DNA from: Haloarcula halophila
GTDB lineage: Archaea > Halobacteriota > Halobacteria > Halobacteriales > Haloarculaceae
Reading direction: 5' to 3'
Assembly (NCBI RefSeq): GCF_029278565.1
Contig: NZ_CP119559.1
Location: 2,108,001-2,172,000, forward strand
Length of the DNA stretch: 64,000 nucleotides
Part shown: in pieces, positions 35,448-37,061 of the stretch
Layout: every line of letters starts with the position of its first letter
Numbering within the stretch: position 1 is the first letter of the stretch
Program-made: the position numbers and the translations under genes
Notes under the pieces: generated by a model
Told to the model about the DNA's origin: nothing
Databases searched by the model: none
Seen by the model: the letters and a program-made list of their open reading frames with translations, nothing else

Positions 35448-35710
35448 ATCGGTCGTTCGATCCGGACTGTGGAAACCGCTTCGGTGGGTGTGGGTCGCTG
35501 CTGGCGTTGCTTCCCAGGGGCGGGGTCCGATCACCGGCACGGTGTCGACTGTCTGCGTAGCCAGATCTAGGCCACGCGAAAAGTAACAGATTCGGTAGGG
35601 TAAAGGTTGTTAGCACGACCTAAAATCGGTTTAGAGTGCCCAAAAGTCGCATATTTAGGACATCCTAATCGATCAGTTTTATTATAGTTGGGGCCGAAGT
35701 ACCGATCGTC
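35448..35710. other. 263-nt divergent promoter region, htpX-like and nifU-like genes
   Basis: AT-rich in the right half. It contains TTAGGA-CA-TCCTAA at 35655-35668, a weaker related element TTAG-N6-CTAA at 35610-35623 with the same 14-nt length, and a TATA-like TTTTATTA (35677-35684) that would give a leaderless nifU-like transcript. No gene is present. Confidence 0.65.
35655..35668. promoter_or_regulatory. DtxR-type dyad upstream of the nifU-like gene
   Basis: TTAGGA-CA-TCCTAA has perfect 6-bp arms carrying the TTAGG half-site of iron/manganese repressors (DtxR/IdeR/SirR type). It lies just upstream of the candidate TATA box at 35677-35684. A related perfect dyad lies at the DtxR-family gene 0.9 kb away. 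Confidence 0.6.
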
Positions 35711-36037
35711 ATGAGCGCAGAAGGACTCGAACGACAGACCCGGAACTACCTCAGTAACAACGTGCCACAGATCCAGCAACACGGCGGCTCCTTCGAAGTG
35801 CGGGACGTCGACGAAGCGGCCGGGACCGCGACGGTCGCGATCGGCGGTGCCTGCTCTGGCTGTGGCATCGCACCGATGACGATGAAGGCGATCAAACAGC
35901 GGCTTCCCGAGAGCGTCGACGGACTGGAAGACGTCGAGGTCGTCCGTGCGGGCGGACCGCGTGCCGCCGTGATGCCGTCGAAGACCGACGAGATGGAAGG
36001 GATGGACGAGTACGAGGACTACAGTCCACCCTTCTGA
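35711..36037 (+). CDS. NifU-like (C-terminal domain) iron-sulfur scaffold protein
   Basis: A 108-residue protein equal to the NifU C-terminal domain. The Fe-S-binding pair is in GGACSGCGIAPMTMKAIKQRL (CxxC at about residues 48-51). Such proteins assemble or carry [4Fe-4S] clusters. The acidic C-terminal tail (about 25 residues, EMEGMDEYEDYSPPF) is extra to the family core. A TTAGGA-type dyad and TATA box immediately upstream suggest iron-dependent control. Confidence 0.9.
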   Translation: MSAEGLERQTRNYLSNNVPQIQQHGGSFEVRDVDEAAGTATVAIGGACSGCGIAPMTMKAIKQRLPESVDGLEDVEVVRAGGPRAAVMPSKTDEMEGMDEYEDYSPPF

Positions 36038-36105: not shown

Positions 36106-36486
36106 CTACTCGCCCGCTCGGTCGTCGAGTTCGTCCTGGAGGAGTGTCGCCGCCAACTGCTCGCTGACGACCGTGCTGACATCGTTGGCGAGTCGCATCG
36201 CTTTCAGTTCGTGCTCTTCCAGGTCTAGCGCGTCACGGAAGAACCACGACAGCGTCACGTACGTCTCGTGAAGCTCTGCGGCCCGTTCCCATCCGTCCTC
36301 GGTGAGCGTCGCGCCCTCGTAGGGCTCGTAGGTGACGAGACCATGTCCGGCCAACCGCTGGAACGTCTCCGAGGTTGTCGCTCCTGATCGACCGAGCATC
36401 TCCGCGACGGTTCCCGACGAGATCGGCGGTTCGTCCCGGTGTTGGGCGATGTAGAGCGCGAGCAGATACTGCGGTGCCTGTGTCAT
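36106..36486 (-). CDS. DtxR-family winged-helix regulator, metal ligands not conserved
   Basis: A 126-residue DtxR-type protein. The winged helix covers residues 1-65 (YLLALYIAQH, SSGTVAEMLGRSGATTSETFQRLAGHGLVTYE) and the helical dimerisation domain follows (LTEDGWERAAELHETYVTLSWFFRDALDL). The usual metal-ligand stretch of DtxR (EACR.EH) reads KAMRLAND here, so by my alignment the Glu and His ligands are Ala and Asn. No SH3 domain follows. A perfect palindrome at 36532-36545 sits between its TATA box and expected start site, so autoregulation is likely. Confidence 0.85.
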   Translation of the reverse strand: MTQAPQYLLALYIAQHRDEPPISSGTVAEMLGRSGATTSETFQRLAGHGLVTYEPYEGATLTEDGWERAAELHETYVTLSWFFRDALDLEEHELKAMRLANDVSTVVSEQLAATLLQDELDDRAGE

Positions 36487-37061
36487 CAGTTGTCGACTGC
36501 GTGTTCCGGTGTCGTTGCGCTGCCCATACTTTTAGGCATGCCTAATAAATTAAAACGGTTCTGGTTTCAGACAACCCGAACCCGGCCGGTCGGCCGAACG
36601 GACCAGCCGCCAACGGGTTGACGGGCGATCGAGTGTTCTCTATCGCGATTATCGGTTTACAGCGGGGGACTGGTGATCGGGACAGATCGAACGAGAACCC
36701 ACGGGAACGGCCGCTCTGCCGGGGCTGTACCGGGAGTTTCGGTCCCAGTCCGCTCACGCGCCGGGGTAGTCGACCCGCGGGGGCACCTGAAATCGGCGGA
36801 CCGTCCGAGCGAACCGTACCGGGCAGGCCACGACCTTCGAGCCTCGATGTCTCGGCGGGCGGTGGATACTCGACCGCCGATCGTTCGCCTGTTCTCCAGA
36901 CGGTCGGTCTGCTATCGGGGGGTTACGACACCGCGTCCGCCCCGCCGGTTTCACGGACCCGACACCGTACAGAGCACACACAGGGGAGTCACAGCCCGCC
37001 GCAGTTGATCACCGTCAGATCGCGCTCCTCCGGGTAATATATCGCTGGCCGCTATATCGAA
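36487..37061. other. 575-nt gene-free stretch between the DtxR-family gene and uvrC
   Basis: Besides the promoter elements at 36532-36555 I see no gene here. Open frames (such as 36618-37037) lack ribosome-site, hydrophobic or haloarchaeal acidic character. The 3' side near the uvrC stop has two TATATCG direct repeats (about 37038-37059). A small RNA could be hidden here, but I cannot recognise one. Confidence 0.5.
36532..36545. promoter_or_regulatory. Perfect DtxR-type palindrome at the DtxR-family gene promoter
   Basis: TTAGGCATGCCTAA is a perfect 14-nt palindrome with TTAGGC half-sites as in DtxR/IdeR boxes. For the minus-strand gene it lies immediately downstream of an AT-rich TATA candidate (36546-36555), i.e. 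in a repressing position. Confidence 0.7.

Follow-up and report, generated by a model that had tools for sequence, protein, structure and literature searches.

A perfect IdeR/DtxR-type palindrome with a class-wide haloarchaeal distribution lies upstream of a DtxR-family gene lacking the canonical metal ligands

Palindromes flanking a DtxR-family gene

The window (the whole 64,000-nucleotide stretch of Haloarcula halophila DNA analysed here, to which all unprefixed positions refer) carries on its minus strand, at 36106..36486, a gene for a 126-aa DtxR-family protein, hereafter C. Protein C has a PF01325 helix-turn-helix match of 39.7 bits (cut-off 26) and a predicted two-domain DtxR fold, in which alignment finds the canonical metal ligands replaced. 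Convergent with gene C, on the plus strand at 35711..36037, is a gene for an Fe-S protein with a NifU C-terminal domain (Nfu-type), which neighbors C in many relatives.

Read directly, positions 36532..36545 spell TTAGGCATGCCTAA, a strandless, perfect 14-bp palindrome, exactly where the first-pass annotation had reported one. The same annotation ascribed its half-sites to the DtxR type, and this agrees with the published record: the palindrome conforms to the 14-bp consensus TTAGGNNNNCCTAA, proposed as a one-dimer IdeR/DtxR site in PMC8464063. A 19-bp two-dimer site was rejected for 36532..36545, as the bases outside the 14-mer break the consensus TTAGGTTAGSCTAACCTAA on both sides. On the minus strand, TTTTAATTTA is followed by the palindrome, which only AAGT separates from an ATG 4 nt on. 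The first of these elements (36546..36555, minus strand) is an AT-rich, TATA-like box that directly adjoins the palindrome; similar geometry recurs at other targets in this genome, and the haloarchaeal TATA-box consensus is given as TTWT in PMC4983044. The annotation placed the palindrome between the likely TATA box and transcription start of the DtxR-family gene; the order of box, palindrome and ATG bears this out, but the nearest ATG opens a predicted 13-codon leader ORF, MGSATTPEHAVDN (36486..36527, minus strand), rather than gene C. The stop codon of this leader overlaps the next start as TGATG, and the ATG of gene C lies 45 nt beyond the palindrome. A weak candidate partner site, TCAGACAACCCGAA (36567..36580, no strand), has three mismatches and may be due to chance; its distance of 35 bp from the palindrome is the spacing of paired operators elsewhere.

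A second perfect palindrome, TTAGGACATCCTAA (35655..35668, no strand), was missed in the first-pass annotation. It lies 42 nt before the start of the nifU-like gene, upstream of a TTTTATTAT box, and is accompanied at a distance of 45 bp by a one-mismatch operator-like site, TTAGCACGACCTAA (35610..35623, no strand). In six related stretches (L027, L028, L033, L037, L040 and L056), the distance from a perfect or one-mismatch site to the nifU start is likewise exactly 42 nt. Since the nifU site is upstream of the presumed TATA box, its effect could be activation rather than repression.

A motif at iron-gene promoters, present throughout the haloarchaea sampled

The pattern TTAGGN4CCTAA occurs at two places in the window, 35655 and 36532, where 100 dinucleotide shuffles gave an expectation of 0. 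The first-pass annotation had proposed a genome-wide motif search, holding that random scatter of the motif would speak against its reading. That search returned 23 places across the 4,041,616 bases of the four contigs, against 0 for the backwards pattern, and these places are not scattered at random: most lie shortly before a start codon, with iron genes among the targets. Three of the 23 fall inside repeats of 99.8-99.97% identity near contig ends; these near-identical stretches are probably assembly redundancy, leaving approximately 20 distinct places. The stretch pairs in question, at the ends of contigs C1 and C2 (L001/L007 and L008/L010), share 99.97% identity across 6.0 kb and 99.8% across 7.8 kb, and are probably untrimmed circular overlaps of the assembly; the copies at the C2 ends differ by small gaps.

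Beyond this genome, the motif is present in all 145 near-complete haloarchaeal genomes sampled, with a total of 1747 occurrences against 157 for the control pattern; it exceeds the control in 141 genomes, equals it in three and falls below it in one. The palindrome also contains GCATGC at its centre, a common restriction site, and could in principle be a chance palindrome, or a restriction or recombination site without regulatory role. We regard this as very improbable given its absence from shuffles, the 23 to 0 genomic count, its placement at iron-gene promoters and its class-wide enrichment; chance origin in its strong form is ruled out by the shuffle, genome and class-wide counts.

The genes beside the other 21 genomic motif places were inspected, and ten target proteins were scanned against Pfam (targets near L002:4005, L004:9125, L004:11931/11966, L004:16396, L006:6513 and the two L008 places lie outside these ten). 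Six of the ten are Peripla_BP_2 proteins, that is, iron-siderophore-type substrate-binding lipoproteins, and the remaining four comprise SBP_bac_6, a GMC oxidoreductase, gluconate-2-dehydrogenase subunit 3 (gluconate-2-dh3) and a DUF5059-plastocyanin protein. Together with the NifU-like protein and C, these targets form an iron-centred set, and the iron link claimed for the motif is thereby upheld; like IdeR/DtxR operators, the motif stands at promoters of iron genes. The DUF5059-plastocyanin protein (818 aa, L006:4021-6477), encoded after an operator, is an unexpected copper-binding member of the iron regulon.

The placement of the motif relative to start codons is also regular. At 15 of the 20 distinct places in this genome an ATG follows 4-16 nt after the site, and six promoters, five of them of Peripla_BP_2 genes and one of the C leader, have a T-rich stretch ahead of the operator and an ATG exactly 4 nt after it. 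The interval is 39-42 nt at L002:6171, at the nifU site and at the outer site of a pair in L004, and 25 nt at L008:4001, while at L008:5268 operator and predicted start overlap. According to PMC4983044, 72% of coding transcripts in Haloferax volcanii are leaderless. Given a TATA-like box, a close ATG and the commonness of leaderless transcripts, the operator most likely spans from just below the TATA box to the transcription start, a position that would suit a repressor. Sites also occur in pairs: in the loci examined (counted without L007, L010, L013 and L032, which repeat other stretches), a perfect site has a second one, perfect or with one mismatch, no more than 100 bp away in 31 cases, and in 28 of these the spacing is 34-37 bp. 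In Haloarcula relatives, two sites at a distance of 35-36 bp bracket a conserved TATA-like box. Such an arrangement suggests that two dimers clamp the core promoter.

The palindrome at 36532..36545 is very probably a genuine operator of a haloarchaeal iron regulon and stands where a bound protein would repress. This regulon resembles the Actinobacterial IdeR/DtxR regulon (PMC8464063, PMC1382209) in its TTAGG/CCTAA half-sites, its 14-bp TTAGGNNNNCCTAA and its iron-uptake targets. It differs in the archaeal core promoter and in the use of a single 14-mer instead of a 19-bp two-dimer site.

Ligand loss in C and candidates for the occupant

Three DtxR-type proteins of this genome, A, B and C, were studied; two more PF01325 matches above the cut-off, at C1:2669112 and C1:1055037, belong to longer frames. 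Only gene C has a perfect site of its own among the three, as none was found at A or B in the locus stretch examined. Paralogue A (C1:186878) combines PF01325, PF02742 and FeoA, lies beside a GDT1 transporter, and retains the classical ligands. It is not favoured as the reader of the motif: its recognition helix differs, and only a two-mismatch site precedes its own gene.

Protein C has no Pfam match to the PF02742 metal-binding/dimerisation domain. Its predicted structure (mean pLDDT 86) nevertheless matches DR2539, IdeR, DtxR and MntR over 112-126 columns. The metal-ligand positions (H79, E83, C102/E99, E105, H106) were read from an alignment with paralogue A. Among 36 C sequences, which include the window protein (L032) and count L028 and L040 separately despite their identical C protein, H79 is replaced by Y and E83 by S in all 36, C102/E99 by M in 33, E105 by A in 34 and H106 by G in 32. 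The window protein itself has Y, S, M, A and N at H79, E83, C102, E105 and H106. The canonical metal ligands of the DtxR family are hence missing from protein C and from most of the 36 sequences. The predicted fold of C is that of two-domain MntR/DR2539-type DtxR proteins (PDB 8pvt, 2f5c, 4hv6), whose metal ligands are not conserved in C; relative to Actinobacterial IdeR/DtxR, C is without both the metal ligands and the SH3-like domain.

The occurrence of C was catalogued by a homology search of the 145 genomes, which supplemented a peptide-pattern genome scan that gave only six C relatives. At a threshold of at least 95 bits, set within a gap between 98.5 and 82.4 bits, C homologues have a patchy distribution over 46 of the 145 genomes; G075 and G122, at 82 bits, were counted as lacking C. 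The motif regulon is present in the 99 genomes without a C homologue above this cut-off, and another protein must therefore read the motif there. Genomes with C carry a mean of 17.7 motif copies, compared with 9.4 in those without, and the within-genus excess is +5.07 (p ~1e-4 from 20,000 permutations over 14 mixed genera; p = 0.39 for the control pattern). C is thus dispensable for the motif but accompanies larger regulons.

The loci of C are likewise rich in the motif. Of 36 C loci, 30 taken from the genome homology search and six from a related-locus search, 24 show a perfect site in the 1600 bp preceding C; the chance expectation is approximately 0.5% per 1600 bp (arithmetic from 1747 sites in 145 genomes). 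A perfect site occurs somewhere in the sequenced stretch examined for 30 of the 36; the 12 homologues without one in the upstream 1600 bp include six with none in the whole stretch examined. Six annotated plasmid regions with C, drawn from the 14 haloarchaeal matches listed, contain ABC substrate-binding proteins (6 of 6), DpsA (three), NifU-family proteins (two) and a VIT1/CCC1 transporter (one).

The first-pass annotation expected the product of 36106-36486, activated by iron or manganese, to repress its own gene. This expectation does not sit with the replacement of the ligands in the 36 sequences or with a regulon that also occurs in the 99 genomes, of 145, where no C passed the cut-off. 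Without the canonical ligands, C is unlikely to repress its own gene in a metal-gated manner by the DtxR mechanism. Autorepression by C in a broader sense, metal-dependent or constitutive, seems doubtful to us, albeit conceivable from the sequence. Protein C does have a DtxR fold and a helix-turn-helix, and its recognition-helix region RSGATTSE aligns with the DNA-contacting helix of IdeR, QSG(P39)TVSQ, where S37, P39, T40 and Q43 contact DNA according to PMC8464063. The presence of C also tracks a greater number of sites, and 30 of 36 C loci carry one. However, the loss of ligands in the homologues compared and the C-independent regulon weigh against it, and the location of C in iron-uptake clusters could by itself explain the higher site count.

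Protein B is a stronger candidate. This DtxR-family protein of 144 aa (C1:1260228, L012:1489-1923) has relatives at E < 1e-50 in 141 of 145 genomes, the exceptions being G001, G007, G021 and G133. Its gene is preceded by a 160-aa ORF without Pfam match. Cys77, Cys121, Cys124 and Cys132 are invariant in 25 of 25 sequences (its own, four from the same genus and 20 from other genomes), and plausibly form a metal or iron-sulfur site. B retains the E83 and E105 positions and is without the H79, C102/E99 and H106 ligands, for which reason iron sensing by B is something we infer. B is putatively TroR-like (TroR being Haloferax HVO_0863), a naming that draws on its near-universality. On present evidence B appears a likelier iron-dependent occupant than C, while autorepression by C is possible. 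Several observations count against the B reading: the ligands missing in B itself; the greater motif richness of C-bearing genomes, which would also fit C as a main binder; the recognition-helix region of C, whose likeness to IdeR is no less than that of the B region; the existence of site-less C homologues; and the nifU site, with its possible activating role.

Both proteins might act at the site. B and C would then share it, either by competing for it as separate homodimers or by pairing in a heterodimer, with C as a metal-blind modulator; such joint control, which overlaps with our preferred reading, is quite possible, if somewhat short of even chances. B and C have in common a helix signature, S-P/G-A-x-x-x-E, that differs in A, and the loci of C lie within the regulon. 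A network of several DtxR factors governing iron has precedent, since PMC6978704 and PMC11349517 name Idr1, Idr2, SirR and TroR in Halobacterium and Idr, SirR and TroR in Haloferax volcanii; the present genome is alike in its several DtxR paralogues. Our literature search met this haloarchaeal network only in passing mentions, and we claim none of the features described here as unpublished. In Haloferax volcanii, TroR is reported to be the chief regulator of iron and to repress another DtxR gene, Idr. By analogy, this TroR-Idr control would be the same circuit logic as B acting on C. Archaeal DtxR metal regulons were also the subject of a comparative-genomic study by Leyn and Rodionov in 2015, which possibly covers the present motif.

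The leader ORF and a proposed iron circuit

Seventeen C loci have a site within approximately 400 nt whose first following ATG precedes C, and in nine of these the leader ORF ends on the C start (exact ends being ATGA/GTGA or TGATG), against 2.0 of 17 expected when the sequences are shuffled and the frame is random. Among short leaders, seven of eight end on the C start against 1.9 expected (P ~2e-4), although the relatives are non-independent, the eight short leaders come from five genera and the C starts were chosen by homology. A leader ORF that begins soon after the operator and stops on the C start is seen at 36486-36527 in the window and in L028, L030, L040, L043, L046, L051, L054 and L061. 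The leader peptides are not conserved among relatives; the overlap rather than the peptide thus seems to be what is kept. Overlaps of the ATGA and TGATG kinds are discussed as translational coupling in archaea and bacteria in PMC6728339.

We consider it probable that the palindrome is a one-dimer operator of the class-wide iron regulon, at which B, as the likeliest occupant, represses the C promoter when iron is plentiful. A DtxR-family dimer on the operator would cover the DNA from the TATA box to the transcription start and so shut the promoter under these circumstances. B suits this role as a near-universal protein whose four cysteines resemble a metal site that has taken the place of the usual one. 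Under iron scarcity, the departure of B would let a transcript begin close to, or at, the leader ATG that follows the operator by 4 nt. This transcript would bear the 13-codon leader ORF, and C would be made by stop-start coupling through the TGATG. Since protein C keeps an IdeR-like recognition helix while its metal ligands are gone, it may in turn occupy sites of this class and so add a second layer of control that is blind to metal. The palindrome, its regulon, geometry and conservation and the ligand loss are direct observations, from which the occupant, the iron response, the transcription start and the coupling are inferred.

More speculatively, C may represent a widespread metal-blind DtxR family that travels with iron-uptake clusters. 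Its members would be induced by iron loss via a Cys4 master regulator, and their translation from a leaderless mRNA would depend on stop-start coupling to a leader peptide that is not conserved. They would then bind the same operators irrespective of iron, as a second layer that dampens the master regulator or takes its place. We hold this extended scheme only tentatively.

Overall, these data connect a single palindrome, whose promoter is laid out with unusual clarity, with an iron regulon that is class-wide, and they separate the operator from the protein to which the first-pass annotation had assigned it. The less ordinary features here are the DtxR family without metal ligands and the leader ORF with its putative coupling. 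Two testable oddities follow: a DtxR family that lacks the classical ligands, and a DtxR-type protein, nearly universal in the class, that seems to have rebuilt its metal site from four cysteines.
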